Below are positions 20,044 to 53,377 of a stretch of DNA of 64,000 bases, piece by piece (the stretch's first letter is position 1; each line of letters starts with the position of its first letter). Origin of the DNA: Synechococcales cyanobacterium GL140_1_metabinner_5_sub (lineage in GTDB: Bacteria > Cyanobacteriota > Cyanobacteriia > Cyanobacteriales > Chamaesiphonaceae); the NCBI GenBank assembly GCA_025359065.1, contig JANYHM010000115.1, positions 62,001-126,000 on the forward strand, given 5' to 3'. Made by a program: the position numbers and the translations under genes. A model generated the notes under the pieces. It had not been told where the DNA came from. It saw nothing but the letters and a program-made list of their open reading frames with translations, and did not search any database.

Positions 20044-20127
20044 GACTTGGTCTTCTTTGCTATTTTCGGACTAAGTAAAAGTGTTTTTGTAGCTATCAGC
20101 TTGGTTCTTGGGGGGGCCGACCCCCAG

Positions 20128-22866: not shown

Positions 22867-23051
22867 AAGTAATGACTTGAAAGATAGCTTGGATTAAGGC
22901 TGGATGAAATTTATCAAATCTGTCGTTGTAAGTAACTAGGTTGCTTAAGGTTGAAAATAGGTGAATTTGACGTGATGCCAGAAGTTTTCAAGATTGACTA
23001 ATTATTTTAAGTCCAAAACATTATTGATGTAATACAATCAACTATTTTTCT

Positions 23052-23065
23052 GTACTTTTGGCTAC
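23052..23065 (-). promoter_or_regulatory. Candidate NtcA site upstream of cphA
   Basis: The sequence GTACTTTTGGCTAC fits the NtcA consensus GTA-N8-TAC exactly and lies 186 bp before the cphA start. A TATTAC hexamer lies 17 nt downstream in the cphA direction, shorter than the usual ~22 nt to the -10. The six fixed bases occur by chance many times in 64 kb, so context carries the weight. Confidence 0.45.
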
Positions 23066-23109
23066 ATTATGAATTATTTACCTGAAGAATAATGCTCTGA
23101 ATATTTTAA

Positions 23110-23973
23110 CTAGTTGTCCAAAATACAGCGCTGCTGGTAGTTATATCGATCGCCTTGACTTAAGACATGAACAGTAAGTTTGTGTAGACTGAGCGGGGAT
23201 GTATCATTACTTTCTAGGTAGTTGGTATGCAGCGTTTCACCAGGATCGATCACAGTAATAGTGCCTTTACCTAGCACTTCAAAGGTGCAATCGTTTTCAA
23301 AAGCTGCACAAGTATCTTCATCTATACCCAAACCCAATTTATCGGGATGGGCAGCGATCGCACTCATTAAGCGCGCCATGCGATTGCGGTTATGAAAATG
23401 TTGATCTACTAGTAATTCTGGAATTATGCTTAAGCCATTGGTCAGGTCAACTAAAGACCGGTTGGGGGATTCGCCACTACTGCCAGCGGCGATCATTTTT
23501 TCACCCATAATTGCGGCACCGGCACTGGTGCCAGCTACCATCAGTTCGCCCAGGTGCAGTCTTTGCTTGAGTAATTCGACAAATTTACTGCCGCCGATCA
23601 AATCGCACAGACGCTGCTGATCTCCACCAGTAATAAAAATGCCTGTGCAGTTGTCCAAGGTGTTCAGCCAAGACTCTTGATCACATTCTTTGGCCACCCG
23701 AATATCGAGGATCTGGACTTGTTGGGCACCCATTTCTCGAAATATTTGGTGGTAGCGATCGCCTACAACACTGGGTTCTTGGGAGGCGCAGGGGATGATG
23801 CCAATTTTAGCCTTCTTGCCACCAGCGCTTTCAAAAAAGGCGGTCAAAATGCTGCGCCCATTGGCTTTGTCCTCTGCTCCACCAATTACCATTATTGGAT
23901 ATTGGGTTGGAGTGGTCATAATTGTTTCAGCGATAAAAGGCCGGGGTTCAAGCACAGAACTTGAATGCTTCAT
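23110..23973 (-). CDS. cphB: Cyanophycinase
   Basis: Serine exopeptidase that cuts cyanophycin into beta-aspartyl-arginine dipeptides. In the 287-residue protein the nucleophile is Ser150 in 'AGTSAGAAIMG', the standard nucleophile elbow of the S51 family. Also present are 'MVIGGAEDKANGRSIL' near the N-terminus, 'FITGGDQQRLCDLIGG' and 'LGIDEDTCAAFE'. The first ~20 residues before 'TTPTQYPIMVIGG' look dispensable; an ATG at residue 19 is a possible alternative start. It follows agrE by 43 bp, so the two are probably one transcript. Confidence 0.97.
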   Translation of the reverse strand: MKHSSSVLEPRPFIAETIMTTPTQYPIMVIGGAEDKANGRSILTAFFESAGGKKAKIGIIPCASQEPSVVGDRYHQIFREMGAQQVQILDIRVAKECDQESWLNTLDNCTGIFITGGDQQRLCDLIGGSKFVELLKQRLHLGELMVAGTSAGAAIMGEKMIAAGSSGESPNRSLVDLTNGLSIIPELLVDQHFHNRNRMARLMSAIAAHPDKLGLGIDEDTCAAFENDCTFEVLGKGTITVIDPGETLHTNYLESNDTSPLSLHKLTVHVLSQGDRYNYQQRCILDN

Positions 23974-24016
23974 TGTATATTACCTGGTTAAAAAAAATTA
24001 AATATGGACGTTGTTT

Positions 24017-32309: not shown

Positions 32310-33815
<1,506 letters not shown>

Positions 33816-33827
33816 ATTATAGTTTTA

Positions 33828-34694
33828 CTAAACCATCAAGAGCTGCTCAGCACTGGCAGTCACAGGTGGAGCGGTGTTACCCAAGTAGAAGTCTGAAAGT
33901 AGAGTAAATAGCTCCCGATCGGGGGTGTCATTAGGTACTACGCCTTCGGGCATGGCCAAAATTTGGTCAGCAATATTCAGGTAGTAATCACACACATAGT
34001 TGAGGGATGGATCCGTTTCGGCCATCTCAAACAATGTTTTGCCCTTAACTCGGGAAACCCGAATATCTTCAATCAGAGGCAAGATATCCAATACAGGCAT
34101 TGGTACTGCTTCTAGATACTTATCGATCAAGTCTCGTTTGGAAGTACGGTTGCCGATCAGTCCAGCCAAACGCAAGGGGTGAGTCCGGGCTTTTTCTCGC
34201 ACTGAGGCGGCAATTCGATTGGCGGCAAACAAGGCATCAAAGCCATTGTCAGTGACAATTAAACAGTAGTCAGCATAATTCAAGGGAGCCGCAAAGCCGC
34301 CACAAACCACGTCGCCCAATACGTCAAACAAAATCACATCATATTCATCAAAAGCATTTAGCTCTTTCAATAATTTGACTGTTTCGCCCACCACGTAACC
34401 ACCGCATCCTGCACCAGCCGGAGGGCCGCCTGCTTCTACGCAGTCTACGCCGCCATAGCCTTTGTAAATTACATCTTCAGGCCATACGTCTTCATAGTGA
34501 TAGTCCTTTTCTTGCAGTGTATCGATGATTGTTGGAATCAAATATCCTGTGAGCGTAAAGGTGCTGTCATGTTTGGGATCGCAACCAATCTGCAAAACTT
34601 TTTTCCCGCGCCGAGCTAAAGCGACTGAGATGTTGCAGCTAGTTGTAGATTTACCAATGCCGCCTTTTCCGTATACTGCTAGTTTCACCTGCAA
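33828..34694 (-). CDS. chlL: Light-independent protochlorophyllide reductase iron-sulfur ATP-binding protein
   Basis: NifH-like reductase of the dark protochlorophyllide reductase. The 288-residue protein has the P-loop '[14 protein letters not shown]' at 8-21, Cys97 ('AGAGCGGYV') and Cys131 ('GDVVCGGFA'), which bridge the [4Fe-4S] cluster of the homodimer, and switch residues '[10 protein letters not shown]' near 38-46. It is the first gene of chlL-chlN. The start ATG at 34694 is preceded by GGAGG-like CGGAGGTTTTGCAGGTGAA. The upstream 372-bp region has a perfect inverted repeat that may be an operator. Confidence 0.98.
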
Positions 34695-38062: not shown

Positions 38063-40486
38063 GTGAACGCAGACAAGTTATCTAAATATTCCCGTCCGGT
38101 CATTGTTTCGCTATTGATTAGCGGTGGCATGTTACAGTTAGCAGCACCAGTTTTGGCTCTTGGCACAGATGCTGGCACCCAGATCACCAACACGGCTACT
38201 GCTAGTTACGAAGATCCGACCGACCCTAACAAACCGTTAAATACTTTCTCTAACACTGTTAAAGTGACAGTCGCAGAAGTTGCCGGATTAACTGTAACTG
38301 CCGATACCTTTGCGATCGGCAAAGGTACTGGGATCAACGGCGTTGTGAACAGCGGTGTTGGTGCAGAAGCTGGTGACAAAGTGAACTTTGACTATATTGT
38401 TACCAACGTAGGTAACGATGCTACACAATTCCGAATTCCTGGTACTGCTACTGTTGCTGGTGCTGGTTCTGTAGACAAAGTTCAGTACTTTGACGGCACC
38501 AATTGGATTGATATTCCTAATGCTGGTGAATTCATTAGCCCTTCTAAGCTGTCTGGTGAAACCCTGAAGGTGCGCGTTATCGTTTCTATTTTGGCTGGTG
38601 CCACTGCCAACACTGATGTAACAGTAACTTTAGGTAATACCACCACTCCTGGTGCTCAAAACGTTACTCGTGATGCTACTGGTGGTGACGTATTTACTGT
38701 CGATAACCCCAATGGTGTGGCCGGTGAAGTTGATGGTGCTCCTGAAAATGGTGTCAGAGAAGCTTCTGTGTCGCAAAAAGTAACAGTTGGTGCTACTCCT
38801 GAAGCATTTGCTACTGTTACCAAAGTACATGGCGCTCAAAACCCAGGTGCTAACCCCAATATTTTGACTGATGACACCTTAACCTATTCATTGGCTTTAA
38901 AAGTTGCTAGCCAAGTTGATGTTCCTGTTACTAGCAACAAAATTGCTGCGGACTTAGCTGCTACTACCATCACTTTAGATGGCAATGCCGCAGCTAAGAA
39001 GGTATTGGTATCTGACGCTGTACCTCAGTATACCACTGCCAAAACTGTAACTGCACCTGCTGGCTGGACTGCCGTTTACACCACTAGCGTTGCTGCTACT
39101 GTGACTGCTGATAAAGCAATTTGGTTGTCAATTGGCACTGGTAGCGTTGCTGTACCTGCTGGCGCAACTCGCGTTGGTTTTGTAGCTGATGGCCCGATCG
39201 CCAAAGGTTCTACTACTCCTGACATGCTTGTCACAGTAGAGTTTACTAACATGCCTGCGACAGGTGGCAACGTTGCTAACATCGCTCAGGTATTTGGTAG
39301 CACCAATGTTAACGGTGTTCTGAAGCCAGTCTACGACGAATCTGGAGACAACAAGCCTAACAACTATAACGACAATGGCACTCCAGGACCTGTCGATCCT
39401 GCTACCGGCAGCCCAGTTGTTTCGACTGGTGTGGTTGATCCTACAGCTCCTGGCGTAACCGATACCAACAACAACAACACTGGTACTGGTGACGGTGGTG
39501 AACCAAACGTTTTAGCCGTTACTCCTCCTGGACAAGCCGGTATTTTGAACGGTACTAGCAACAATCCTGGTGCAGTTGGTCCTACTGGTGAAAATGATGA
39601 TTTCACTAACGTTTCTGCTCCAATTCCAGCTACTACTTGGGTTCTAGATGCCAATGGCAACTATGTTCCATCTGCAATCAATCCAGGTTCTGTACCTTTC
39701 TCCAACACTTTCAAAACTGCCGTTGGTAGCCCAACTGGTAGCGTAGACTTATTGCCTGTAACTCCAGCTACTCCCCTACCTGCTGGCACCAAGGTGACTA
39801 TCAGTAACGGTGGCTCCTCCAAGGTTTATGAGTTTGATGGCACTAAGTTTGTAGATGTAGTTAATGGTGTTGCTACCACAACTCCTGCTACTCCTTTGGT
39901 TATTGCTAACGTAGTTGCTGATACTAAGGTGAATTACGGCGTAGACGTAGATCTACCTGCTGGCACTCCACAGTTAGCTGGTTACAGTGTACCTGTTACT
40001 GCTTTTGTAGACATCAATGGTGACGGCATTTTGGGTGCTACTGATCCTCAAAATAAAACCATTGATCGGGTTTACACTGGCTACCTTAAGCTGACTAAAG
40101 AAGCTCAAATTACTGATGCTAATGGTGGAATTGTTGAAGCCTTTACTGCTGCTCCTAACAAGAAAGCACAGCCCGGTCAGTCGATCGAGTACAGGATCAC
40201 TTATACCAATATCTCGGAAGTCGCTCCTGCTAACAGCGGTAGCGTCACCTTGAATGCTGCCAACATCAAAGTAACTGAGGATGGTAATGCTGCTCCTAAC
40301 AACTGGGCACCTATTACTACTCACAAAGTAGGCTCAGCTACCGGCAGCAACAATGGTGCCATCACCTTTGACGCTGGTGCTAGCAACAACAGTACTCCGA
40401 CCGTAGCTGTCTACAAAGATGTAGTAGCCGGTCCTTTAGGTCCTCAAGCTGCTGGGTCATTCCGTTTCACTCGCGTTGTGAAATAA
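38063..40486 (+). CDS. Large secreted surface protein, putative major subunit
   Basis: 807 residues from a GTG start. A signal peptide spans about 1-33 ('IVSLLISGGMLQLAAPVLA'). The mature chain opens with 'ITNTATASY' (41-49) and 'EDPTDPNKPLNTFSNTVKV', then DUF11-like units ('NFDYIVTNVGNDATQFRIP'; 'IEYRITYTNIS' near 710), an Asp/Asn-rich stretch 'DESGDNKPNNYNDNGTPG' near 430, and 'FVDINGDGILGATD' near 650, which looks like a calcium-binding DxNxDG loop. There is no cysteine at all. Composition is dominated by Ala, Gly, Thr, Val and Asn. Codons are strongly biased to GCT, GGT, GTT, ACT and AAC, more than in the neighbours, which suggests high expression. Paralogous to the next gene over its whole length. 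Followed by a strong terminator. Function unknown; a structural surface layer or fibre subunit is inferred. Confidence 0.8.
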   Translation: MNADKLSKYSRPVIVSLLISGGMLQLAAPVLALGTDAGTQITNTATASYEDPTDPNKPLNTFSNTVKVTVAEVAGLTVTADTFAIGKGTGINGVVNSGVGAEAGDKVNFDYIVTNVGNDATQFRIPGTATVAGAGSVDKVQYFDGTNWIDIPNAGEFISPSKLSGETLKVRVIVSILAGATANTDVTVTLGNTTTPGAQNVTRDATGGDVFTVDNPNGVAGEVDGAPENGVREASVSQKVTVGATPEAFATVTKVHGAQNPGANPNILTDDTLTYSLALKVASQVDVPVTSNKIAADLAATTITLDGNAAAKKVLVSDAVPQYTTAKTVTAPAGWTAVYTTSVAATVTADKAIWLSIGTGSVAVPAGATRVGFVADGPIAKGSTTPDMLVTVEFTNMPATGGNVANIAQVFGSTNVNGVLKPVYDESGDNKPNNYNDNGTPGPVDPATGSPVVSTGVVDPTAPGVTDTNNNNTGTGDGGEPNVLAVTPPGQAGILNGTSNNPGAVGPTGENDDFTNVSAPIPATTWVLDANGNYVPSAINPGSVPFSNTFKTAVGSPTGSVDLLPVTPATPLPAGTKVTISNGGSSKVYEFDGTKFVDVVNGVATTTPATPLVIANVVADTKVNYGVDVDLPAGTPQLAGYSVPVTAFVDINGDGILGATDPQNKTIDRVYTGYLKLTKEAQITDANGGIVEAFTAAPNKKAQPGQSIEYRITYTNISEVAPANSGSVTLNAANIKVTEDGNAAPNNWAPITTHKVGSATGSNNGAITFDAGASNNSTPTVAVYKDVVAGPLGPQAAGSFRFTRVVK

Positions 40487-40513
40487 CCTGTCTCTTTCGG
40501 GAGTACTAAATCT

Positions 40514-40533
40514 GCGGGCGGTTCGCCGCCCGC
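40514..40533 (+). terminator. Strong terminator after the first surface-protein gene
   Basis: 8-bp all-GC stem GCGGGCGG/CCGCCCGC with a UUCG tetraloop, followed by TTTCTTCC, 28 bp past the stop codon. It would let only part of the transcripts reach the downstream genes. Confidence 0.88.
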
Positions 40534-40668
40534 TTTCTTCCAAATCACAGAATGTTCGCTGGTCTAGGCTCGGGTGAATCAGTTCAGCCTACACAAGCGA
40601 AACATCTAAACTATTTGGTTTTGTCCTTTAACCTCAGGTCGCAATAGCAAGTTTATTGCAGAGCAAGC

Positions 40669-43080
40669 GTGAAACAATTTTCCTCGATTCGTAATTTATC
40701 ACTGTACTGCTTAGTGGCTACTGGCCTGAGTTTAGCAAGTACAGCAGTTGCTGCCCCAGTGCCCATTATCAGCAACCAAGCAGAAGGCAACTACCAAGAT
40801 CCGATCGATCCCAACAGGCCATTTACAGTTTTCTCTCCCACCCTAAAAATCAGTCTCCAAGAAATAGCTGGTATTACAGTCGTTCCGACTGGCATTACCC
40901 GCCAAGATGGCAGTTTAAATGGTGGCACCGTAGGCACTCCCACCAAAGACACGGTTCTATTTTACAATTTCGAGATTCAAAATATTGGCAGCGACACCAC
41001 TAAGTTTTTTGTGCCTAACCTTGCTCAAGTGGGGACAGTTGGTAACTTCCAAAAAAATCAATATTTCAATAGTATTGATTGGTTAGATGTACCTGTTGGG
41101 GGTTTTACTAGTGGAGTGATGCTGCCAAATGCCAAACTACCAGTGCGAGTAGTAGTTTTAGTGAATGATGCGATCGGCGATTTACCGGTCACATTAGGTA
41201 AAACGACGGGTTCTATAAATCCTGCTCAGACCCAAAACCAACTGCGCATCGACAACCCCGAAGACGTTTACACCATTGATGTGGCAGATGGAACAGTCGG
41301 AGAATATGATGGTCAACCTGGTAATGGTACTCGGGAAGCTCAGGCAACCCAAACCTTCAAAATAGGTGCTACGCCAGAAGCGCTTGCTAAAGTTACACTG
41401 GAAATCAAACAGCCTTTTAACCCGGCTGACAACACCATTAATTTTGGTCTGAGCTTGAATGTAGCTGATACCTTGCCCACGAATGTGAGCAATATTAGTC
41501 CTACGGATTTAACTGGTACTAGTACTTCGATCGATGGTCAAACTAAAACAGGCATCTTGATTTCTGACGCGATTCCGTTGGGCACTAAACTGATAGCAGC
41601 AGTCACACCAGATAATACCTGGATACCAATTTATTTCTACAGTAGCACCTCGATCAGTTCTACCGATACAGCTAATAATGTTGCTTGGTCTACCACTCCC
41701 CCCGATGCCAACACCGCTCTAAATGTCCGACGAGTAGGCTTCTTCCGCAACGATTACCGGATGCCCAAAGGCACTACAGTTATAGGATTTCAAGTCAAAG
41801 TCGAAATCACCGACTTTAGCCGCACCGAAATTTATAATATTGCTCAGGTCTTTGGTAGCCAACCCCAAAATCCGAACAACTCGGCAGACAAAAATCCTAG
41901 CACTAAGCTCATCTTTGATGAATCTGGTGACAGCCAACCCAATAACTACAATGATGATGGTACGGCAGGAATAAAAGATACAGAGCAGCAGCCTGTATTG
42001 TATCCGGGGATTTTGGATGCAGCGGTTCCGGCTAATGACCCTCGATCACCAAACAGAATTGGTTCTGATACGAGCAAGAATTCACCAGATGGCGAATTTT
42101 TATCGGTGCCCTTCAAGATTGCTGCTCCCCCGGCACTCAAAAATGGCCCTCGGGAACAGCCCACCGCAGTTGGTGCAACTAACGACAACGATGATTTTAC
42201 CAATAAATCTACGCCGATCGCCTTTGGTGGCAGCGGAGCTATTGGCAGTCCAAATGGTTCCACAAATCTACCACTGGTCACTTTTACCAATACCGTATTA
42301 AACAGCAGTGACCTGGCTCGGGATATCAAAATATTACCCCAAGTATCGGTGGCTAGCGACTTACCCAATGGCACGATCATCACCTTACTGGATTCAGCAG
42401 ATGCTAATCTCACCGCAGCATTCAGCTACCAAAATAGCATTTTTACACCTGTCGTAAATAGCCCTGCTACCTTGGTGCTGAAAAATGTACTAGCCAGCGC
42501 TACTAAAAACTACACGGTGCAGGTTAGCCTACCGGCTGGCACCGGAGCAGTTAAGGGGTACCCCGTGAAATTACTGGCATTTATTGATACCAATAATGAC
42601 AATATCCCGGATACTACCGAAGCCAAAAATGCCACGATCGATCGCACTTACACCGGTTTTGTTGAGGTGTTAAAGGAATCGCGAGTGCTGGATGCTAACA
42701 AAATGCCGCTAACTGATGCCAAAGGTGTTTTTAGCGAAACGCCCAAACCAGTCAAAGTCGATCAGTACATCGAGTATCGCATCACCTACACCAATATCTC
42801 TACCGTGGCAGTGGGGACTGGCAACAAGCCTATTAGCGCTATCAACTTCACTATCACCGAAGACGGTATCGCCAGTCCAACCAATGCTAACAATTGGGGC
42901 GACTTGACCACCAATGATCCCAGTTCGGCGACCAGCACCGCAGGCACCATTACTCACAGTAAAGCTGGCGGAGTTGGCACGGCCACCGATTTAGACATAG
43001 TGAAATACCAAAATATTCTTACTAAGCCGATCGAACCTGGTCAGATTGGCACTTTTACCTTCCGACGTAAAGTAAAGTAG
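40669..43080 (+). CDS. Large secreted surface protein, paralogue of the preceding gene
   Basis: 803 residues from a GTG start. Signal peptide about 1-29 ('LYCLVATGLSLASTAVAA'); the only cysteine is inside it. Segment by segment it parallels the previous protein: 'ISNQAEGNY' (34-42), 'QDPIDPNRPFTVFSPTLKI', 'EYDGQPGNGTREAQATQ', 'IGATPEALAKVT', 'FDESGDSQPNNYNDDGTAG', 'FIDTNNDNIPDTTE', 'IEYRITYTNIS' and the C-terminal 'GTFTFRRKVK'. It lacks the extreme codon bias of its paralogue, so it is likely a minor form. No enzymatic motif is seen. It lies 182 bp downstream, past a terminator, and may have its own promoter. Confidence 0.78.
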   Translation: MKQFSSIRNLSLYCLVATGLSLASTAVAAPVPIISNQAEGNYQDPIDPNRPFTVFSPTLKISLQEIAGITVVPTGITRQDGSLNGGTVGTPTKDTVLFYNFEIQNIGSDTTKFFVPNLAQVGTVGNFQKNQYFNSIDWLDVPVGGFTSGVMLPNAKLPVRVVVLVNDAIGDLPVTLGKTTGSINPAQTQNQLRIDNPEDVYTIDVADGTVGEYDGQPGNGTREAQATQTFKIGATPEALAKVTLEIKQPFNPADNTINFGLSLNVADTLPTNVSNISPTDLTGTSTSIDGQTKTGILISDAIPLGTKLIAAVTPDNTWIPIYFYSSTSISSTDTANNVAWSTTPPDANTALNVRRVGFFRNDYRMPKGTTVIGFQVKVEITDFSRTEIYNIAQVFGSQPQNPNNSADKNPSTKLIFDESGDSQPNNYNDDGTAGIKDTEQQPVLYPGILDAAVPANDPRSPNRIGSDTSKNSPDGEFLSVPFKIAAPPALKNGPREQPTAVGATNDNDDFTNKSTPIAFGGSGAIGSPNGSTNLPLVTFTNTVLNSSDLARDIKILPQVSVASDLPNGTIITLLDSADANLTAAFSYQNSIFTPVVNSPATLVLKNVLASATKNYTVQVSLPAGTGAVKGYPVKLLAFIDTNNDNIPDTTEAKNATIDRTYTGFVEVLKESRVLDANKMPLTDAKGVFSETPKPVKVDQYIEYRITYTNISTVAVGTGNKPISAINFTITEDGIASPTNANNWGDLTTNDPSSATSTAGTITHSKAGGVGTATDLDIVKYQNILTKPIEPGQIGTFTFRRKVK

Positions 43081-43165
43081 CCAGTTTGGGAATACTAACT
43101 ATGATCGCCCTTTTCTTTGGGGAATCAGAATCTTTATCTACACTAGTCTAGGAGAATTCCTGCTC

Positions 43166-43678
43166 ATGAAACGCTCTATCTTCTCTACCTTTTCGACTGT
43201 TGCTATAGTGGCTCTTTCTACCACTATCTTACTCAACAGCAATTTACCAGTCATCGGCCAATTGGCGGTGCCCGCTGTCGCTCAATCTGCTGAGCAACAG
43301 CAAGCAATTAAACTCAACCTTTCTCAGAATAAGAAAGTTGGTTCTAAGTTGGTGCCTATCTCCAACAGCACTTCAGTTAAGCCCGGCGATGTAATTGTTT
43401 ACACCGTTACTGCTAACAACGTCAGCGATCGCACCATCACAAAATTGAACATTGACCAAAAAATCAAGTCTGGTACTGTTTATGAAAGCCAGTCAGCTAC
43501 CTCTGTAGCCAATGCCGATTTGACTTTCAGCGTTGACGGTGGTGCAAGCTTTTCAGCCAAACCAGTTCTCAACAAAAAGCCTGCTTCTGCTAGCACCTAC
43601 ACTAATGTTCGCTGGGTATTTGCTACTGTGCCACCTAAGAGCAAATCTACTGTCAGCTATGCCGTAGTTGTGCGCTAG
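43166..43678 (+). CDS. Small secreted DUF11-like protein
   Basis: 170 residues. Signal peptide about 1-40 ('VAIVALSTTILLNSNLPVIG' then 'QLAVPAVAQS'). The rest is one DUF11-type beta-sandwich: 'VKPGDVIVYTVTANNVSDRTI', (residues 72-92, key PGD and Y-x-x-x-x-N-x-S), 'DQKIKSGTVYESQSA' and 'ANADLTFSVDGGASFSA', ending with 'KSTVSYAVVVR'. No cysteine in the mature part. It could be a cap, linker or chaperone-like single-domain unit of the same structure. AGGAG lies 12 bp before the ATG. Confidence 0.78.
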   Translation: MKRSIFSTFSTVAIVALSTTILLNSNLPVIGQLAVPAVAQSAEQQQAIKLNLSQNKKVGSKLVPISNSTSVKPGDVIVYTVTANNVSDRTITKLNIDQKIKSGTVYESQSATSVANADLTFSVDGGASFSAKPVLNKKPASASTYTNVRWVFATVPPKSKSTVSYAVVVR

Positions 43679-43732
43679 CTCGATGGTTCCGTCGATTCAG
43701 ACCCCGTCGATTTATTACTAAAGGAAAGCTTC

Positions 43733-45253
43733 GTGTTTAGATTTCAGTCGCCCTCACACAGAATATATCTGTCTGTTGGTTGTGCTAGCTGGTTGGTGTC
43801 GAGTTTATTAGCAGCTCAGCCCTTGTGGGCGCAGGATGCTGTGATTAAGATTACCAACCAAGCTCAGTACAATTACAACACCAATCAAGATGGCCCCAGC
43901 ACTGGTAGCCAAGATACTACAACTATTCAAAGCAGTACTGGTCAAATCGTCAACGATTTTACCGGCCTAATTGATCCGCTGGGGGTAATTACTGGCTGTA
44001 ACGGGCAGAAACTAGCAGATTACAACGGTTATACCATAGCCCTCTTTAACTCTGCTGCCGATGGATTGAATCCGACGGGGTTAGCGACCTTAGTACAAAC
44101 AGAAGTTCCTGACAATCCGAACAATAATATTCCTCTAGGTCTGCGACCAAATAGTAACAACGACAATCCTTTCAGGCTAGACACTACAAGTACAGGGGCT
44201 TATAACTTCCTGTTTAACAGGGCTGCTGGCCAATTGGATGTAGGTAAAAGCTATATTTTAGTTGTGAAACCACCAGCTAACTCCACCTATGCTGAACGAC
44301 GGATACGCATTGATGTTACTAGCTTCAGTAACAACATTTTGAGCTACAAAGCTACTAGTCTAGATGGTCAGCCTCTGAACTTAATTGATAATAGCACAGT
44401 AGTATCTAGCCAAGTAAACGTTAATGATGCTACCACCACCGGACTTAACCTTTCTTTGCTCAGTCTCAGAGGTATTGGAGTTAGTGCCTGCGATGCTAAG
44501 CCAATCCAAATTGTCAAAAGTGCCGATCGAGCCAGCGCCGAACCGGGCGACACAGTGGTTTATCGTCTGACTCTCCGCAACCTGAGCGACACCGATATTA
44601 TCAACCCCACAGTTACTGATACTTTACCTCTAGGACTATTCCTCCGCCCAGAATCGGTCAAAGCTCAGTTGGGTTCAGCAATACAGCCCGTCACTATTAG
44701 CCAAAACGGCAGCACCACTACATTCAAGGTCGGCGCACCTGGCTTTACTATCCCTGCAAAACAGGTAGTAAATTTGGTCTACGCTGCTACTTTAGATGCA
44801 GATGCTATTCGCGGCACTGGTCGAAACATCGCTAGCCTCACTGCTATTCGCAAAGATAACAATGTACCTATTACTGATGGCCCGGTTGGCTATCAGCTCA
44901 CTGTCCGTCAAGGCTTAATTCGAGATACTGGTACCTTACTTGGCCGAGTATTTGTCGATAAAAACTTTGATGGTGAACAACAGCCCAATGAACCCGGCGT
45001 ACCAAATGCCGTAGTCTTTTTAGACGACGGTAATCGGATCACGACAGATGCCAATGGTCTGTTCTCTGTCCAATCAGTTGCCACTGGGTATCGCACTGGC
45101 GTATTAGACCTAGGCAGTTTACCTGGATACACTCTAGCTCCCAATATCCGTTTTGTTGAACGCAACAGTCTATCCCGACTGGTGAAAATTGCTCCCGGTG
45201 GCATTGTCAGAATGAATTTTGGCGTTACACCTACAGCGCGCGAGGCTAAATAA
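43733..45253 (+). CDS. Secreted DUF11 / SdrD-B-like protein
   Basis: 506 residues from a GTG start with GGAAAG upstream. Signal peptide about 1-34 ('ASWLVSSLLAAQPLWAQ'). The mature chain again opens with 'ITNQAQYNY' (40-48). Residues ~60-255 form a domain with two cysteines, ~257-385 a DUF11 unit ('SAEPGDTVVYRLTLRNLSD', 'VTDTLPLGLFLRPESV'), and ~400-500 an SdrD-B-like unit ('GRVFVDKNFDGEQQPNEPG', then 'VVFLDDGNRITTDANGLFSV') with a probable Ca-binding DxNxDG loop. The C-terminus 'IAPGGIVRMNFGV' resembles the region before beta-barrels in larger fused proteins of other phyla. The beta-barrel gene begins 2 bp after its stop, which fits the idea that here the two parts are split and translationally coupled. 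Confidence 0.8.
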   Translation: MFRFQSPSHRIYLSVGCASWLVSSLLAAQPLWAQDAVIKITNQAQYNYNTNQDGPSTGSQDTTTIQSSTGQIVNDFTGLIDPLGVITGCNGQKLADYNGYTIALFNSAADGLNPTGLATLVQTEVPDNPNNNIPLGLRPNSNNDNPFRLDTTSTGAYNFLFNRAAGQLDVGKSYILVVKPPANSTYAERRIRIDVTSFSNNILSYKATSLDGQPLNLIDNSTVVSSQVNVNDATTTGLNLSLLSLRGIGVSACDAKPIQIVKSADRASAEPGDTVVYRLTLRNLSDTDIINPTVTDTLPLGLFLRPESVKAQLGSAIQPVTISQNGSTTTFKVGAPGFTIPAKQVVNLVYAATLDADAIRGTGRNIASLTAIRKDNNVPITDGPVGYQLTVRQGLIRDTGTLLGRVFVDKNFDGEQQPNEPGVPNAVVFLDDGNRITTDANGLFSVQSVATGYRTGVLDLGSLPGYTLAPNIRFVERNSLSRLVKIAPGGIVRMNFGVTPTAREAK

Positions 45254-45255
45254 CT

Positions 45256-48200
45256 ATGAAATACTCTCAAGCAGCTTTAGCGATTTGTCGAGCATTCTGG
45301 CTGGGCGCAGCTATTCAAGGATTAGGTTTAATTCTCTCTAGCACTTGCGTTCAAGCTGCTCCTCTTCTTGACAACGCAATTATTCCTGGCGCAGCGCTAG
45401 CTAGCCCCGCTCCGGCTGCACCAGAGCCATCAGCAGAACCAATCGCTCTAGCAAAACCAGTTAGCATCAGCAATCCGCTGCAAATTTTAACTCCGACTAC
45501 TAATAGTGTTGTCGATATCCCCGCAGCTACTGTTATCGTCCAATATTTAGGTAGCTCACCAATTGAACTAAAAGTCAACGGTCAACTGGTAGATAGTAAG
45601 TCGATCGGACGCACCGAAACTGATACTAAAACCAATATTGTTACCCAAACTTGGTATGGGGTATCGCTCAACGCTGGTGACAATATTATCGTTGCTCAAG
45701 ACAACCAGGGCAATACTGCGGTAAGCAAAGTACAGGTGCGTGGTGTACCAACAAAAGTACAGCTTACTACCAAAGAAAGCCGTGTACCTGCTGACGGTCG
45801 CTCTTTAGTAAATGTGGAAGGCCAGTTGCTAGATGAAAATGGCAACAATAGTAAACGCGATGGTGTAGTGACTCTTTATAGCACTGCGGGCGAATTTGCT
45901 GGCGTAGACAAAGACCGTGACCAGCCGGGTTTTCAAGTACCGGTAGTCAAAGGTTACTTCTCGGCTCCACTGAGAGCGGGTCTGACTGCTCAAAACGTGC
46001 AGATTCGAGCCACCATCATGAGCTTGGAAGCCACCACCCAAGTTCAGTTTGAGACTAACCTGCGCAGCTCGATCGCTACTGGTTTGTTAGATTTACGAGT
46101 AGGTGCTAGGGGCACTGACTACTATCGTTCTTTTACCGAGTTTTTACCGGTTGATCGCGATAACAACACCGAAGTCCGCTTACGTGGTCAAGGGTTTGCT
46201 ACTGGCCGCATTGGTGACTGGTCAGTAACTGGAGCTTTAAACAGCGATCGGCCTTTAAACAAGGTCTGTAACACCTCCGATCGACTATTCCGCGATACTA
46301 GCAGCACTCAATCTTGCGAAGATCTCTATCCGGTCTATGGCGATACTTCCAAAGTAGAAGCACTGACTCCTTCCCGAGACAGCGTCTATGTGAAACTAGA
46401 AAGCTCAGTAGGCGTAGCGGGTAGCACTCCCAACTCGTTGCTCTGGGGTGATTACAATACCACCGAGTTTGCCAATCGCTCTCAGCAGTTTACTACTACT
46501 TCTCGGAACCTTCATGGAGCTAAACTAAACTACAACTTTGGTAACTTGTTGGTTAGCGGTTTCTATGGCGACAATCTGCAAGGTTTCCAGCGAGATAACA
46601 TTGCCCCCGATGGCACTAGTGGCTATTACTTCTTGTCTCAGCGTTTACTGTTGGGTGGCACCGAATCTTTGAGCGTAGAGACCGAAGAGATTGATCGGCC
46701 AGGCAATGTGGTTAAAGTAGAGCCATTAGCCCGAGGCTTAGATTATGAAATTGACTACGATCGCGGTACCGTCTTACTGCGTAGTCCTTTGCTGCGCACT
46801 GCTGTAGCCGACAATGGCAACTTACTAGTTCGTCGCTTAATTGCTACTTATCAATATGCTAATGGTTCTAACAGTAACATTATTGGTAGTCGTGCCCAAT
46901 TTAACCTCAACCGCACTAATGGCCAAGAAAGTTGGTTAGCCGGTAGCTATACCAAAGAAACTCAAGGAATTAGAGACTTCAGCATTTTTGGTGTAGATGG
47001 ACTTATCTCCTTGGGCAACAGCAGCAACATTGTTGCAGAATACGCCCGTTCTACCAACAACAGCGGTCTAGGTGATGCGATAGGCGGCAGCGCCTTCCGG
47101 GTCGAAGGACAGTTCAAATTTAGCGATACCACTCAAAGTCGGGCTTACCTGCGCAGCAGTGAAGCTGGTTTTTCTAACAACGCGACTACTAGCTTTGTCC
47201 CTGGCCAAACTCGCTATGGTGCTGACCTAACTACTCGAATTGGTAACGGCACTAGTTTAAGGCTGCAAGCCGATCGAGAAGAAAATCGCGGTTTGCCCCC
47301 GATCGCCATCACCGGACTAACTAATTTCTTAATTCCCAGCATTCCAGTAACTGGTCGGGTCGATAACGACTTAACTACGGTTACGGCCGGTATTCAGCAA
47401 CGTTTGGGTAGTGCCACTGTCGATTTAGACTACGTTAATCGCAGTCGCCAAGATCGCTTAGCTACTCTTCCTAGCCAGTCAGATGTTTCTTCTGATCAGA
47501 TTCGGACAAGAGTTGGAATACCTTTAGGTAATAATTTGACTCTGCGAGGTCAAAATGAAATCAACCTCAGCAACCAGCAAGATGTGGTTTACCCTAACCG
47601 CACAGCTTTGGGCGTTGATTGGGCTGTATACCCCGGCATCAACCTGCGACTGAGCCAGAACTATGTTTCTAGCACCCAGTTTGGAGATAGCAATTATACC
47701 AGCTTAGATTTTGACAGCACATACAACCTCACCAACAGCACTAAAGTAATTGGTCGTTACTCTCTAAGTCCTTTCCAGTCGATCGGCTCTGTCGGACTTC
47801 AGCAAGGATTTGTGCTCAGCCCTGGACTCAAACTAGACCTGAACTACGAAAAAGTAATTGGTAGCATCACCAATGTTACTGGTGCTGGTCAGCAGTTTGC
47901 CCAACCCGTAGGCAGCGGTCAAGTAGCTTCTAGCTTAACCACTACTGGTGGCGACACCTATGGTATTGGTTTTAACTACACCGACAACGCCAACTTCCAA
48001 GCTAACGCTCGCTACGAACTGCGCAATACTAATATCAGCAGCTCCAGCTTAATTTCGGCGGGTGCTACAGGTAAGCTTGGTTCTGACTTGACTGCCTTGT
48101 TCCGCTTCCAGCAATCTGGAGCAGCTAATCAGCTTTTGCGAGATGCCCCGATCGGCGACACCACCAACCTCAAATTAGGGTTGGCTCTGCGGAACCCTGC

Positions 48201-48729
48201 GGTAGATCAATGGAACGCCCTGCTTAGCTATCAATATCGCAAAAACCCTGCCCTATTGCCTTCCAGCATTTTAACTGCCAGTGGTACTGGTTCCGAAGAT
48301 CATACTTTGTCTCTAGACGCTATTTATGCACCTAGCTGGCAGTGGGAGTTTGCTGGAAAATATGCTCTGCGTAATGCTACTAGCTACTTAGATCAAACTC
48401 TTAGCGCTGGCAACACGATCGGCATTAGTCAACTGCGAGCCACTTACCGCCTGGGCTACAACTGGGATCTGACTGGCGATGTGCGCTGGCTGAGCCAATT
48501 TGCTAGCGGTCGTAACGAAACCGGTGCTTCTTTAGAAGCTGGTTATTACCTCACTCCTAACCTCCGCCTCTCTGGTGGCTATAGCCTAGGTGCAGCCGAT
48601 GACCCCAATGGCAACCGCACTGGCGGCGGTTTATACGCCGGAGTCACCTTAAAGCTCAACGATTTATTTGGCGGCTTTGGTCAACAGCAGCTCAGCCCCA
48701 TCCAACAGCAGGAGTCTAAAATCAAATGA
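45256..48729 (+). CDS. Outer-membrane beta-barrel protein with an N-terminal invasin-like Ig domain
   Basis: 1157 residues. Signal peptide to about residue 35 ('GLILSSTCVQA'), then a Pro/Ala-rich linker, a small beta domain (~75-160) and a Big_1/invasin-like unit at ~165-255 ('VPADGRSLVNVEGQLLDENG'). From ~270 to the end alternating strands ending in aromatic residues indicate a large barrel. Family-type landmarks are 'WGDYNTTEFANRSQQF', 'LHGAKLNYNFGNLLVSGFYG', 'GTSGYYFLSQRLLLGGTESL' and 'ARGLDYEIDYDRGTVLL', a pattern I associate with DUF11/SdrD-containing outer-membrane proteins of other phyla. The final residues are Gln-rich rather than the usual aromatic last strand. It overlaps the next gene by 4 bases (ATGA). 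Likely the outer-membrane anchor or exporter of the surface proteins; that role is inferred. Confidence 0.8.
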   Translation: MKYSQAALAICRAFWLGAAIQGLGLILSSTCVQAAPLLDNAIIPGAALASPAPAAPEPSAEPIALAKPVSISNPLQILTPTTNSVVDIPAATVIVQYLGSSPIELKVNGQLVDSKSIGRTETDTKTNIVTQTWYGVSLNAGDNIIVAQDNQGNTAVSKVQVRGVPTKVQLTTKESRVPADGRSLVNVEGQLLDENGNNSKRDGVVTLYSTAGEFAGVDKDRDQPGFQVPVVKGYFSAPLRAGLTAQNVQIRATIMSLEATTQVQFETNLRSSIATGLLDLRVGARGTDYYRSFTEFLPVDRDNNTEVRLRGQGFATGRIGDWSVTGALNSDRPLNKVCNTSDRLFRDTSSTQSCEDLYPVYGDTSKVEALTPSRDSVYVKLESSVGVAGSTPNSLLWGDYNTTEFANRSQQFTTTSRNLHGAKLNYNFGNLLVSGFYGDNLQGFQRDNIAPDGTSGYYFLSQRLLLGGTESLSVETEEIDRPGNVVKVEPLARGLDYEIDYDRGTVLLRSPLLRTAVADNGNLLVRRLIATYQYANGSNSNIIGSRAQFNLNRTNGQESWLAGSYTKETQGIRDFSIFGVDGLISLGNSSNIVAEYARSTNNSGLGDAIGGSAFRVEGQFKFSDTTQSRAYLRSSEAGFSNNATTSFVPGQTRYGADLTTRIGNGTSLRLQADREENRGLPPIAITGLTNFLIPSIPVTGRVDNDLTTVTAGIQQRLGSATVDLDYVNRSRQDRLATLPSQSDVSSDQIRTRVGIPLGNNLTLRGQNEINLSNQQDVVYPNRTALGVDWAVYPGINLRLSQNYVSSTQFGDSNYTSLDFDSTYNLTNSTKVIGRYSLSPFQSIGSVGLQQGFVLSPGLKLDLNYEKVIGSITNVTGAGQQFAQPVGSGQVASSLTTTGGDTYGIGFNYTDNANFQANARYELRNTNISSSSLISAGATGKLGSDLTALFRFQQSGAANQLLRDAPIGDTTNLKLGLALRNPAVDQWNALLSYQYRKNPALLPSSILTASGTGSEDHTLSLDAIYAPSWQWEFAGKYALRNATSYLDQTLSAGNTIGISQLRATYRLGYNWDLTGDVRWLSQFASGRNETGASLEAGYYLTPNLRLSGGYSLGAADDPNGNRTGGGLYAGVTLKLNDLFGGFGQQQLSPIQQQESKIK

Positions 48730-50825
48730 AACTAGTTAACTATTTCCTGCTGCTGGCATTGGGTAGCAGCGCCCTCCCAGCTCAGGCAAACAATGACTCC
48801 CCAGATGTTTACAATTTACAATTCACTGTAAATAGTGATCGAGATGAGGTCAGTCCTGATGATTTTTTAACATTACGGGAAGCGATCGAGGTGATCAATG
48901 GCAAGATCAAGCTCGATCAACTCACTACTGCCGAACGTAAACAATATGTTCCAGAAGTAATGAATGGTTCAAAGATCGTTTTTAAGTTACCAGCGGGTAG
49001 TCAACGAATTCAACTTCAGTCGGCGTTACCAGCAATCACCCAACCGGGCGTAACAATCGAAGGAAAAACGACTGGTAAAGCTACTTTAGATGGTCTGACT
49101 TTTGAGGTGCCAGAGGTCGAAATTACTCCAGCTCCAGGAGTCATGATTGATCGGGGTCTCACCCTCATGGCCGACAACATTACCGTGAAGGGCTTAAGCC
49201 TTTATGGGTTTCAAGTTGGCATCAATCCCAGCAGTCAAAACCTCCCTGGCGCAGATATTTTTATTGGCACCAAAACTTATCCCGAAATTGACGAACGGCT
49301 GGCTCCTAAAAACATTGTGATCGAAAACAATTTTCTGGGCATCAATAAAAATCGTCAGATGCCAGACAGCACCTCCGATTTTGGCGTGTATGTTTTCGAT
49401 TCTCAAGGCATCACTATTCGCAATAACGCGATCGGCTTCCATACGGCCAGCGGCATTATCAGCCAAATTAGCGCCAATAACCTGTTGGTCGAAAACAACG
49501 CGATTTTTGCCAACGGCACCCAAGGAATGCCCGATGCCATTCGGTTAGAAGGTAAATTAGCCAACAACAAAATTAAAGGCAACTCCATTTGTGGCAACGA
49601 TGGCAGCGCCGTATTTATGTTTAAACCCGATTCTGGTGCCGTGGCCATCACCAACAACCGCATTTCCTCCAATGGTCGTCGCCTCCGGCGCGCCGCAATT
49701 CATTTAATGGGTAATGACAATGTGGTAGATAACAACTCGATCGAGTTTCAGGCAGGCTCCGGTGTCTCGGTTTCAGCGTTTGCTCAACATCATCGGGGCG
49801 ATTTGCCCTCTGGCCGCAATGTCATTAGCAACAATCGCTTTAGCAACCTAGAAGGACTCAGCATAGACCTAATTACCTATCGCAACGAAGCCGTCGAAGA
49901 TTTCCAAAATGGCGATGGCATTAATGCTCCCCGCAACAGCGAAAACCGCCGTCTAGATACGGGGAACGGAGCAATCAATGCGCCGCAGTTTCTAGCTAAC
50001 GAGTTCTACATTTTAGGTGGCCGGGTCAACCTAGATGGCACCGCCGAGCCAAATACTAAGGTAGAAATCTACCGGGTAAATAGCACCAAAGAGATTGAGT
50101 ATGGTCCCTTATCTCAGCCCCTAAAAACAGTTAGTGCCGACGCTCAAGGCAAATTCCAAGCCACATTAACTGGCCTAGAACCAGGAATGGTCTTAAGCGC
50201 AGTTACTACCGATGCTAAATATGGCACCTCCGAACCAGCCCGCAATGCGATCGTCACTGTACCTGGTCAGACCGCTTTAGCTCGTGAAGCGCAGCTATCC
50301 GAACCAGTTAAAAAAATCCCCGCTGATTGCAGCCTCCAAAATGTACCTGTAGCAGTTAATCCCCCCATTAAAGTCACGCCGCCTCCCGCCCCACCAATTC
50401 CAGTAGAACCACCAATCCCGAGCATTGTCAAAATCTCTATTCCCCAAAAGGTTCACTTCGCTCTCGATAAATCCTATCTCAGCCCAGCGACCACTAAGTT
50501 GTTAGATGAAATCGTGCGCGTACTGCAAGCTAACCCCAGCATCAGCGTTGATCTGGCTGGACATACTGACCCTCGGGCACCACAGGCTTACAACCAGGCT
50601 TTGGGAATGCGACGGGCAACAGCAGTGCGGAATTACCTGCTTCGCAAAGGTATTTCTACCAACCGTATGACCATTCGATCGATGAGCTTCAACAATCGCG
50701 CTACTGCTGACCAAGGCGTGAATCCCTATGCCCTCGATCGACGGGTAGAGTTTGAATATCGTGATGTGCGCGGCGTGGAGTTACAGGTGATTGATCGCTT
50801 CGATGACTTACAACCCGAACGCTAG
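48726..50825 (+). CDS. Exported beta-helix protein with C-terminal OmpA domain
   Basis: 699 residues. Signal peptide about 1-21 ('YFLLLALGSSALPAQA'). An N-terminal CSLREA-like stretch 'FTVNSDRDEVSPDDFLTLRE' lacks the Cys, then a right-handed beta-helix at ~130-390 with repeated 'NNxI/NNAI' turns ('IVIENNFLGI', 'ITIRNNAIGFHTASG', 'LLVENNAIFANG'). An Ig-like unit follows (~420-510), a Pro-rich linker ('VTPPPAPPIPVEPPIPS'), and an OmpA domain at ~570-690 with 'VDLAGHTDPRAPQAYNQALG' and 'RRATAVRNYLLRKGI', the peptidoglycan-binding helices. Starts inside the stop of the barrel gene. It would tie the barrel or surface structure to the cell wall. A 44-bp palindrome closes the cluster. Confidence 0.85.
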   Translation: MKLVNYFLLLALGSSALPAQANNDSPDVYNLQFTVNSDRDEVSPDDFLTLREAIEVINGKIKLDQLTTAERKQYVPEVMNGSKIVFKLPAGSQRIQLQSALPAITQPGVTIEGKTTGKATLDGLTFEVPEVEITPAPGVMIDRGLTLMADNITVKGLSLYGFQVGINPSSQNLPGADIFIGTKTYPEIDERLAPKNIVIENNFLGINKNRQMPDSTSDFGVYVFDSQGITIRNNAIGFHTASGIISQISANNLLVENNAIFANGTQGMPDAIRLEGKLANNKIKGNSICGNDGSAVFMFKPDSGAVAITNNRISSNGRRLRRAAIHLMGNDNVVDNNSIEFQAGSGVSVSAFAQHHRGDLPSGRNVISNNRFSNLEGLSIDLITYRNEAVEDFQNGDGINAPRNSENRRLDTGNGAINAPQFLANEFYILGGRVNLDGTAEPNTKVEIYRVNSTKEIEYGPLSQPLKTVSADAQGKFQATLTGLEPGMVLSAVTTDAKYGTSEPARNAIVTVPGQTALAREAQLSEPVKKIPADCSLQNVPVAVNPPIKVTPPPAPPIPVEPPIPSIVKISIPQKVHFALDKSYLSPATTKLLDEIVRVLQANPSISVDLAGHTDPRAPQAYNQALGMRRATAVRNYLLRKGISTNRMTIRSMSFNNRATADQGVNPYALDRRVEFEYRDVRGVELQVIDRFDDLQPER

Positions 50826-51134: not shown

Positions 51135-51370
51135 GGGCAGTAGCTTAATGATACCTTCCTATGTCTACAGTCTGTATATTTCTTTGACGACCCACTAAGT
51201 AGTTTGGCGTAAACAGGCGATCATAGGATTAATTTTAGCCCAGACCACCAGCAAGCCCAGAACCCATCTTCAAAAACAAAATTTTTGTGGGTATCATATC
51301 AAGGAAAGTCGAACCCGAGAATAAATCGGTTACACTTAATGTCGCCAACGCTTTTGGGAGGTATCGTCAC

Positions 51371-53377
51371 ATGGGATTAGAACTAGCTAGGGTCGAAGAA
51401 ATCCCTAAGATTATTAACGTACCTGAGCCACCTACCTCTGGCAAAAAGAAGAAAAAGCACAAAGAACCCAAGAACGGCTCCTGGTCGATCGAAGACAGCG
51501 AGAACCAATACCGCATCAAAGGTTGGGGCGAACCTTACTTCTCCATCAACGCCGCCGGTCACGTCACCGTATCTCCCCGAGGTGATCGAGGTGGGTCACT
51601 AGATTTATTTGAATTGGTCAATGCTCTGCGGGAGCGCAACCTTGCTTTACCTCTACTCATCCGCTTCTCTGATATTTTAGAAGATCGGATCGAGCGTCTG
51701 AACGCCTCCTTTGCTAAAGCGATCGCCCGCTACAATTACGATGGCAGCTACCGGGGCGTATTCCCCATCAAATGCAACCAGCAGCGCCATTTGGTCGAAG
51801 ACTTAGTGAAATTTGGCAAACCCTTCCAGTTTGGCTTAGAAGCTGGTTCTAAACCAGAATTGATGATTGCCCTAGCCACCTTAGATAACCCAGGGTCATT
51901 AATTATCTGTAACGGCTACAAAGACCGGGAGTATATTGAAACTGCCATGTTGGCCCAGAAGCTTGGCCAAACTCCGATCATTGTATTGGAGCAAGTAGAA
52001 GAAGTCGAAATTGCGATCGAAGCAGCCAAGTCTTTGGGCATCGAACCAAACCTAGGGGTGCGCGCCAAGCTCAACAGCAAAGGCATGGGTCGTTGGGGGG
52101 GGTCTAGCGGCGATCGGGCTAAGTTTGGCCTGACTATTCCTGAAATCATCATGGTGGTCGATCGGCTACGGGAAGCCAAGATGTTGAACTGTTTGCAGTT
52201 GCTACATTTTCATATTGGTTCTCAAATTTCTTCAATCTCAGTAATCAAAGAAGCCATCATCGAAGCTAGCAAAATTTATGTAGAGCTAGCCCAGTTGGGT
52301 GCCAACATGCGCTACTTAGATGTAGGCGGTGGTTTAGGTGTGGACTATGATGGCTCCCAGACCAACTTCCACGCCTCCAAAAATTACAACATGCAAAACT
52401 ACGCCAACGACATTGTGGCGGAAGTAAAAGATGCCTGTGCCGAAAAGAAAATCCCCGTACCCATTTTAGTTAGTGAAAGTGGGCGAGCCGTTGTCTCTCA
52501 CCAATCAGTCTTAATTTTTGATGTACTGGGCAGCAGCGAAGTGCGCAGTGAACTCCCTCATCCTCCGAATGAGAATGAACACGCCATCATCCGCAATCTT
52601 TGGGAAATCTACAACACCATCAACCTCGAAAATTTCCAAGAAGCCTACCACGATGTCACCCAATTCAAAGAAGAAGCCTTGAACCGCTTTAACTTGGGCT
52701 ACTTGAGCATCTCTGAACGCGCCCGCGCCGAGCAGTTCTATTGGGCCTGCTGTCGCAAAATTTTAGACATCATCAATGATGAAGACTATGTGCCCGATGA
52801 CCTAGAAGAGCTGGAGCAAATGATGTCCTCGATCTACTACGTTAATATGTCGGTATTTCAATCAGCTCCAGATAGCTGGGCGATCGATCAACTCTTTCCG
52901 ATCATGCCCATCCATCGCCTTTGTGAAGAACCCACCCAACGGGGCATTTTGGCTGACCTCACCTGCGACAGCGACGGTAAAATCGACCAGTTTATTGACC
53001 TCCGCGATGTAAAGCCTGTCTTAGAACTCCATACTTTGAAAAAGCATAAGCCCTACTATTTAGGTCTTTTCTTAGCCGGTGCCTATCAAGAAATCATGGG
53101 CAATCTGCACAATCTTTTTGGCGATACCAATGCGGTACATATCAAGCTCACTCCTAAGGGCTACCAAATCGAACATGTGGTTAAAGGCGACACCATGAAG
53201 GAAGTGGTAGGCTATGTGCAGTATGACGCAGAAGATTTGATGGAAAATATCCGCAAAAAATCTGAGCAAGCCCTGCAAGAAAAACGCATTACCCTCCAAG
53301 AATCCCAGCGACTGATGCAGAACTACGAGAGTAGCTTAGGGCGTTATACTTATTTATCACCGCCTCCCCGAGATTAA
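51371..53377 (+). CDS. speA: Biosynthetic arginine decarboxylase
   Basis: PLP enzyme that decarboxylates arginine to agmatine, the first step of polyamine synthesis. From ATG 51371 the protein has 668 residues; GGGAGG lies 8 bp upstream and 'MGLELARVEE' is a more usual beginning than the longer GTG frame from 51287. PLP binds Lys134 in 'VFPIKCNQQRHLVEDL'. Other marks are 'LLHFHIGSQISSI', 'YLDVGGGLGVDYDGS' and 'SESGRAVVSHQSV'. Competes with agrE for arginine. A DUF1824 gene starts 8 bp after the stop. Confidence 0.96.
   Translation: MGLELARVEEIPKIINVPEPPTSGKKKKKHKEPKNGSWSIEDSENQYRIKGWGEPYFSINAAGHVTVSPRGDRGGSLDLFELVNALRERNLALPLLIRFSDILEDRIERLNASFAKAIARYNYDGSYRGVFPIKCNQQRHLVEDLVKFGKPFQFGLEAGSKPELMIALATLDNPGSLIICNGYKDREYIETAMLAQKLGQTPIIVLEQVEEVEIAIEAAKSLGIEPNLGVRAKLNSKGMGRWGGSSGDRAKFGLTIPEIIMVVDRLREAKMLNCLQLLHFHIGSQISSISVIKEAIIEASKIYVELAQLGANMRYLDVGGGLGVDYDGSQTNFHASKNYNMQNYANDIVAEVKDACAEKKIPVPILVSESGRAVVSHQSVLIFDVLGSSEVRSELPHPPNENEHAIIRNLWEIYNTINLENFQEAYHDVTQFKEEALNRFNLGYLSISERARAEQFYWACCRKILDIINDEDYVPDDLEELEQMMSSIYYVNMSVFQSAPDSWAIDQLFPIMPIHRLCEEPTQRGILADLTCDSDGKIDQFIDLRDVKPVLELHTLKKHKPYYLGLFLAGAYQEIMGNLHNLFGDTNAVHIKLTPKGYQIEHVVKGDTMKEVVGYVQYDAEDLMENIRKKSEQALQEKRITLQESQRLMQNYESSLGRYTYLSPPPRD

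Follow-up and report, generated by a model that had tools for sequence, protein, structure and literature searches.

A row of six plus-strand genes in a cyanobacterial genome is one co-inherited unit with a fixed gene order. On sequence grounds, its products probably form a surface fibre or fibrillar adhesin that consists of several subunits and is anchored in the outer membrane. Within the window (the whole stretch of DNA analysed, 64,000 nucleotides in length), the ORF listing confirms six ORFs in a row at 38063-50825, here termed P1 to P6; the gaps from P1 to P6 are 182, 85, 54, 2 and -4 bp. All features of the cluster described below lie on the plus strand. Sec signal peptides are seen by eye at all six N-termini. 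The flanks are ordinary, with an adenylosuccinate-synthetase-like gene upstream (by eye) and genes for arginine decarboxylase and a DUF1824 protein downstream. A promoter scan at the locus gave results no better than those for shuffled sequences. Domain searches of the six proteins revealed neither SLH or RTX domains nor tandem DUF11 domains.

The wider surroundings of the cluster form a nitrogen-storage neighbourhood (17044-26149, minus strand, and 51287-53377, plus strand). Genes for proline utilisation A, a cyanophycin-synthetase-like protein and an ArgZ-like arginine dihydrolase lie close together, and the arginine decarboxylase gene is separated from these by the cluster. At 32310-34694 (minus strand), a NifH/FrxC-family gene adjoins a nitrogenase-component-1-type gene; this pair probably encodes subunits of the light-independent protochlorophyllide reductase.

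P1 (38063-40486; 807 aa) and P2 (40669-43080; 803 aa) are exported DUF7925 proteins (PF25546; E 1.2e-47 over residues 249-435 of P1, and 5.4e-42 for P2), and are 39% identical to each other. Both are proposed shaft subunits. An IxNxA motif marks the mature N-terminal strand of each, namely GTQITNTATASYEDP in P1 (38177-38221, following the signal peptide) and PIISNQAEGNYQDP in P2 (40759-40806); both are proposed donor strands. The C-terminal region of P1 (40076-40483), which ends in GSFRFTRVVK, appears DUF11-like in the family alignment inspected by eye and is a proposed acceptor that lacks its last strand. The DUF11 profile itself has no significant match to the C-termini of P1 and P2, and no sequence relative of P1 was found in the PDB. 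Between the two genes, a hairpin scan located a perfect 8-bp G+C hairpin with a T-rich tail (40514-40533), and hairpins also occur 3' of the DUF7925 gene in most relatives. The hairpin after P1 is possibly an attenuator or a 3' stabiliser of the mRNA; it is also cited for the plausible suggestion, first made in the first-pass annotation, that P1 and P2 are 'abundant' subunits. In two relatives (L047 and L051), the hairpin after the DUF7925 gene is a GTAGTAAG..CTTACTAC palindrome, which may be a repetitive element.

P3 (43166-43678; 170 aa) is an exported protein with a single DUF11-type domain (TIGR01451, E 1.3e-5) and is proposed to be a cap or assembly factor. Family alignments indicate that P3 stops at the penultimate strand and that the catalytic acid is missing from most P3 proteins; the N-terminal donor motif is absent across the family. 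P4 (43733-45253; 506 aa), the proposed base of the fibre that engages the barrel, is exported and combines a DUF11 domain (E 1.6e-7) with a sub-threshold match to SdrD_B (E 2e-4). Its mature N-terminal strand, DAVIKITNQAQYNYNT (43841-43891), carries the N-terminal strand motif and is another proposed donor. Profile searches delimit a DUF11-SdrD_B module (44504-45229) that is conserved in other phyla; profile positions ~245-488 of P4 match C-terminal stretches of proteins encoded upstream of barrels.

P5 (45256-48729; 1157 aa) is a probable outer-membrane barrel, judged from its relatives, its strand pattern and its beta-amphipathicity. Relatives in cyanobacteria are 45-53% identical. The protein falls into no confident family, and no sequence relative of the barrel was found in the PDB; Invasin_D3 remains below cut-off, as do the better-scored Big_1/Invasin_D3 matches of one relative. 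An AlphaFold model, built from a 9-sequence alignment and of low confidence overall (pLDDT 50), has an Ig-like N-terminal part followed by a strand meander over the last ~880 residues. The invasin/GH2-Ig-like domains (45475-46053) lie in a segment modelled with moderate confidence, and their assignment also draws on fold matches. The meander of about 30 strands (46078-48726), a probable barrel, is delimited by the low-confidence model and by beta-amphipathic windows, which are in excess over shuffled sequences (z 4.5). Fold matches of a model at this pLDDT are indicative only; they comprise GH2 Ig domains, InvE and, weakly, TonB-dependent receptors. P6 (48726-50825; 699 aa) is exported and contains a beta-helix (Beta_helix, E 3.1e-11) and an OmpA domain (PF00691, E 7.4e-15; residues 578-662, 50457-50711), the proposed link to the cell wall. 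In comparison with one relative (L064), dN/dS is about 0.04 for P5 and about 0.13 for P6, and both are thus under purifying selection.

These results bear out most of what the first-pass annotation had read from the window: six exported plus-strand genes in a row, of which the last three are coupled (a 2-bp gap between P4 and P5, a 4-bp overlap between P5 and P6), encoding two ~800-residue paralogues, a one-domain DUF11-like protein, a DUF11/SdrD-B protein (its SdrD_B part being weak) and a beta-helix/OmpA protein. For the remaining gene, described as a barrel with an invasin-like domain, the strand meander and the Ig-like N-terminal part agree with the description; the invasin assignment itself falls below cut-off.

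The unity of the cluster is apparent from 146 cyanobacterial genomes, evenly spread over the phylum. The barrel is matched in 20 of them, P4 in 20, DUF7925 in 14 and the beta-helix part of P6 in 8. All DUF7925 matches, and all strong P4 and P6 matches, adjoin a barrel on the same strand; none was found away from a barrel in the 146 genomes. The barrel-linked loci are drawn from several families. With genome relatedness ignored, the presence of all 14 DUF7925 genomes among the 20 barrel genomes corresponds to a hypergeometric p of 3e-15, and the P6-barrel association to a p of 3e-8; the linkage of DUF7925 with the barrel is far beyond chance. The order DUF7925-P3-P4-P5 is kept in 15 further loci, so that the co-occurrence in fixed order for which the first-pass annotation had called is indeed found, and the scattering of the genes among relatives that it regarded as fatal to its proposal is not. 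P6 is present in five of 15 DUF7925 loci, missing in 8 and in fused form in two. A shorter form of the cluster consists of a short P4, P5 and mostly P6, and lacks DUF7925 and P1-P3. A matching layout is seen in a row of hypothetical proteins encoded on a Synechococcus NIES-970 plasmid: the first protein ends like DUF7925 proteins, and the last ends in the conserved C-terminal domain described below. The presence of the cluster is patchy, even inside one genus.

In one clade (L044, L046-L051 and L055), the cluster adjoins a shared divergent gene, 86-99% identical among these eight relatives; the copy that was scanned encodes a PLP-dependent enzyme. Given this shared neighbour, the cluster has probably been inherited vertically at one site in this clade. 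A deep-branching relative, L063 (G047:C6), has a distant barrel match (28%) amid large GEVED, SdrD_B and DUF11 proteins, and may represent an ancestral state of the system.

Most relatives carry a seventh gene downstream of the cluster, which encodes a large, variable, adhesin-like protein. The N-terminal parts of these proteins differ (DUF11 repeats, LTD, VWA, GEVED); the last ~175 residues are common to them. In two seventh proteins, 70% identity is confined to the last 217 residues. Alignment of 12 of these C-terminal domains reveals invariant KRxT, EYTxY, CD and RFR motifs, and the corresponding profile has full-length matches in 17 genomes, all 17 of which bear a barrel. The only PDB sequence match of the domain is a weak one (E 0.03), to the DUF11 structure 9IFR; its model has no significant fold match, the best being mostly Gram-positive pilus backbones (E 0.02-0.05). 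The locus in the window has no seventh gene, and arginine decarboxylase comes next instead. The same genome encodes the C-terminal domain in three tandem proteins on contig C34 and in one on contig C73; two of these four (P0001 and P0004) have N-terminal ~240 residues in common with P1 and P2, and the other two do not. The cluster had been described as a complete build; subunits, adaptor, probable barrel and OmpA-type wall-binding protein are all in place, and the seventh gene is absent from the locus. Elsewhere, at L124 (G000:C18, 2955-11961), two large neighbouring proteins have near-alike glycine/aspartate-rich C-termini, RTX-like in look; one of them is the strongest DUF11 match of its genome and is without the conserved C-terminal domain.

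The core of the system extends beyond cyanobacteria. Searches of plasmids with tblastn found barrel relatives in Pseudomonadota; in Thermus and Deinococcus, the N-terminal part alone had relatives. When 25 cyanobacterial barrels were combined into a profile, it matched ten Pseudomonadota barrels with E values of 1e-26 to 1e-69. A giant DUF11/SdrD-type gene lies directly upstream of the barrel in Roseivivax, Loktanella, Sulfitobacter, Nitratireductor, Phyllobacterium, Sinorhizobium and Eleftheria, and in Pelagibacterium the upstream gene encodes a 1907-aa hypothetical protein. A C-terminal stretch of these upstream proteins, the giants and that of Pelagibacterium alike, matches the DUF11-SdrD module of P4; past this module, the C-termini of the giants are OmpA-like in look (by eye). 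In Paracoccus, the gene upstream of the barrel is short and near insertion sequences, yet matches P4. Fusions are also found: in Acinetobacter, the P4 module is fused ahead of the barrel, and genes for OmpA and DUF11 proteins come next; in Eleftheria, OmpA is fused to the barrel, and so is an OmpA-like part at L057 and L058. These fusions in other bacteria support the association of adaptor with barrel, and of barrel with OmpA, that had been proposed from the window. A Deinococcus cluster has the order P4-like protein, barrel-like protein and a protein whose end matches the C-terminal domain.

The ends of the proteins suggest how subunits may be joined. DUF11 is an established stalk domain of adhesins with a Lys-Asp-Asn isopeptide bond, and in complete DUF11 domains the last strand carries the Asn of this triad (PMC12617251). 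Alignments and inspection indicate that P1, P2, P3 and the seventh proteins end one strand short of a complete DUF11 domain. Conversely, P1, P2, P4, P0001 and P0004 start, right after the signal peptide, with a strand of the last-DUF11-strand type; in the domain alignment, that of P1 resembles the final strand of complete domains. The IxNxA strand comes after the signal peptide in all 17 DUF7925 proteins and in most P4 proteins, and P3 and the seventh proteins have no such strand at the N-terminus. The alignment of the DUF7925 family shows an apparently invariant Lys and Glu near the C-terminal end and Asn in the N-terminal strand, and the residues of the C-terminal domain and the N-terminal strand are compatible with a Lys-Asp-Asn isopeptide bond. 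In principle, then, the C-terminal DUF11-like domain of one subunit, lacking its last strand, could be completed by the N-terminal IxNxA strand of the next, and a Lys-Asn bond from subunit to subunit could seal the joint, just as one forms inside complete DUF11 domains. In a computed join test, the candidate donors came out ahead for P3, to some extent for P2, and for neither P1 nor the C-terminal domain; the test also missed the last strand of P4 itself and is insensitive. Of the DUF7925 proteins, only some reach their highest position-specific score for the final DUF11 strand at the mature N-terminus. Strand exchange, possibly sealed by an intersubunit Lys-Asn bond, is put forward only tentatively as the subunit joint.

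From these donor and acceptor ends, distinct roles follow for the subunits: P4 would be donor only (base), P1 and P2 both donor and acceptor (shaft), and the seventh proteins acceptor only (tip). P5 would act as the outer-membrane platform, tied to the cell wall by the OmpA domain of P6. The DUF11-SdrD_B module of P4 would engage P5, with P4 starting the fibre, and repeated P1 and P2 would form its shaft. Large variable proteins with the C-terminal domain would join the fibre, some as adhesive tips; candidates are the downstream seventh gene in relatives and the four C34/C73 proteins in the genome of the window. P3 may be the cap or assembly factor. The fibre borne by the P4-P5-P6 base would thus comprise several subunits in cyanobacteria, and elsewhere a single giant chain.

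Other arrangements deserve consideration. The proteins might be displayed or exported without any fibre, by a logic like that of type IX secretion: P5 would be an exit pore or anchor, the C-terminal domain a sorting tag, and P1 and P2 further displayed proteins. The presence of one barrel per genome against several unlinked C-terminal-domain proteins would fit this, as would a tag that lies at the very C-terminus and occurs together with the barrel, and N-terminal parts that vary like cargo. However, the DUF7925 proteins are fixed in the locus and have both end strands, the Pseudomonadota relatives have a single giant stalk-like protein with the P4 module at its end, and no further secretion parts are seen at the loci. 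Export without a fibre is accordingly considered unlikely. Of the six proteins, only P6 resembles a type IX component, its OmpA domain being similar to PorE.

It is less likely still that P1 and P2 form a two-dimensional coat, i.e. a surface layer or sheath, on the P4-P5-P6 complex. The lack of SLH and RTX domains in the six proteins, the adhesin-type domains of the partner proteins and the kinship with single-chain DUF11 stalks all speak against it, even though P1 and P2 are large and probably abundant paralogues, with a hairpin after P1, and layers of Ig domains exist, as in the Deinococcus HPI layer according to the excerpt of PMC10120038. Of the surface layer, fibre or adhesion sheath suggested by the first-pass annotation, a fibre or adhesin is thus favoured. 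Finally, adjacency could reflect inherited history only, with independent surface proteins and no joint machine. This is very improbable in view of the P4-barrel and barrel-OmpA fusions, the lack of strong P4, DUF7925 or P6 matches off the barrel in 146 genomes, and a linkage maintained between phyla; the shared site in eight related genomes would be compatible with it, and P6 is missing at several P1-P5 loci, which, with the short form without P1-P3, indicates that not all parts are obligatory.

The surface fibre or adhesin favoured here can be compared with known systems. The open-access literature searched yielded no account of a cyanobacterial DUF11-barrel-OmpA cluster, and none of the barrel family. 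DUF11 adhesins (PMC12617251) and, in the excerpt of PMC13319060, grappling hooks have already been described, and two 'SdrD B-like' proteins have been reported from Spirulina vesicles (PMC11635480). The closest parallel is provided by the DUF11/CLIPPER adhesins, for example Acinetobacter silvestris B9T28_05395 (PDB 9IFR; PMC12617251), which share a DUF11 stalk, GEVED-type adhesive parts, OmpA-like anchoring and a diderm host. Exported DUF11-type domains are likewise present in the cluster (P4 above cut-off, P3 by TIGR01451). The known example is a single chain, whereas the cluster divides the parts among several genes and also has DUF7925 subunits, a barrel and unlinked partners; it lacks a tandem DUF11 stalk joined to an anchor in one polypeptide, OmpA being encoded in a separate gene. 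The grappling hooks, Aureispira GhpA and Litorilinea GhlA, are long DUF11 surface filaments (excerpt of PMC13319060), and giant DUF11 proteins directly precede barrel relatives in Pseudomonadota. In contrast, the window encodes no giant protein with tens of DUF11 domains like GhpA, the largest of the six having 1157 aa; according to the same excerpt, the organism with GhlA is thought to have no outer membrane, and no barrel partner is described there.

Chaperone-usher pili and archaeal threads, the latter with covalent links added between subunits, offer a precedent for an N-terminal donor strand and an incomplete C-terminal Ig-like domain (PMC9715654); their sequences are unrelated to the cluster, for which strand exchange is a proposal. 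A chaperone-usher pilus was rejected on the lack of any usher (PF00577) match in the genome, the E. coli control being positive, and a sortase-assembled pilus on the lack of any sortase (PF04203) match, again with positive controls. An inverse autotransporter (intimin/invasin) was rejected as well, since in the low-confidence model the Ig-like part precedes the strand meander, in reversed order. A SlpA-type connector (PMC9388160) also links a large barrel to the cell wall; it does so through an SLH domain and a coiled coil in one chain, whereas the counterpart in the cluster is an OmpA domain, carried by a protein of its own or by a fusion, and no SLH domain occurs in any of the six proteins. 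With the defining features of chaperone-usher, sortase and SLH systems lacking, the cluster is best placed as a variant of DUF11 fibrillar adhesins. A bolder and rather doubtful reading is a new class of diderm fibre, based on split-DUF11 strand exchange with a spontaneous Lys-Asn lock, without usher or sortase, and with an unnamed barrel common to Cyanobacteriota, Pseudomonadota and (partly) Deinococcota and unlinked, interchangeable tips.

If subunits do crosslink over a split DUF11 domain, this would be a simple self-assembling covalent polymer, of interest to surface biology and materials science. For the giant DUF11 adhesins in other diderms, the barrel would be a candidate partner in the outer membrane; its current annotation there is TonB receptor or hypothetical protein. 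The conserved C-terminal domain provides a search handle for displayed proteins, and 'hypothetical' and DUF genes of cyanobacteria would become a defined surface system with named parts.
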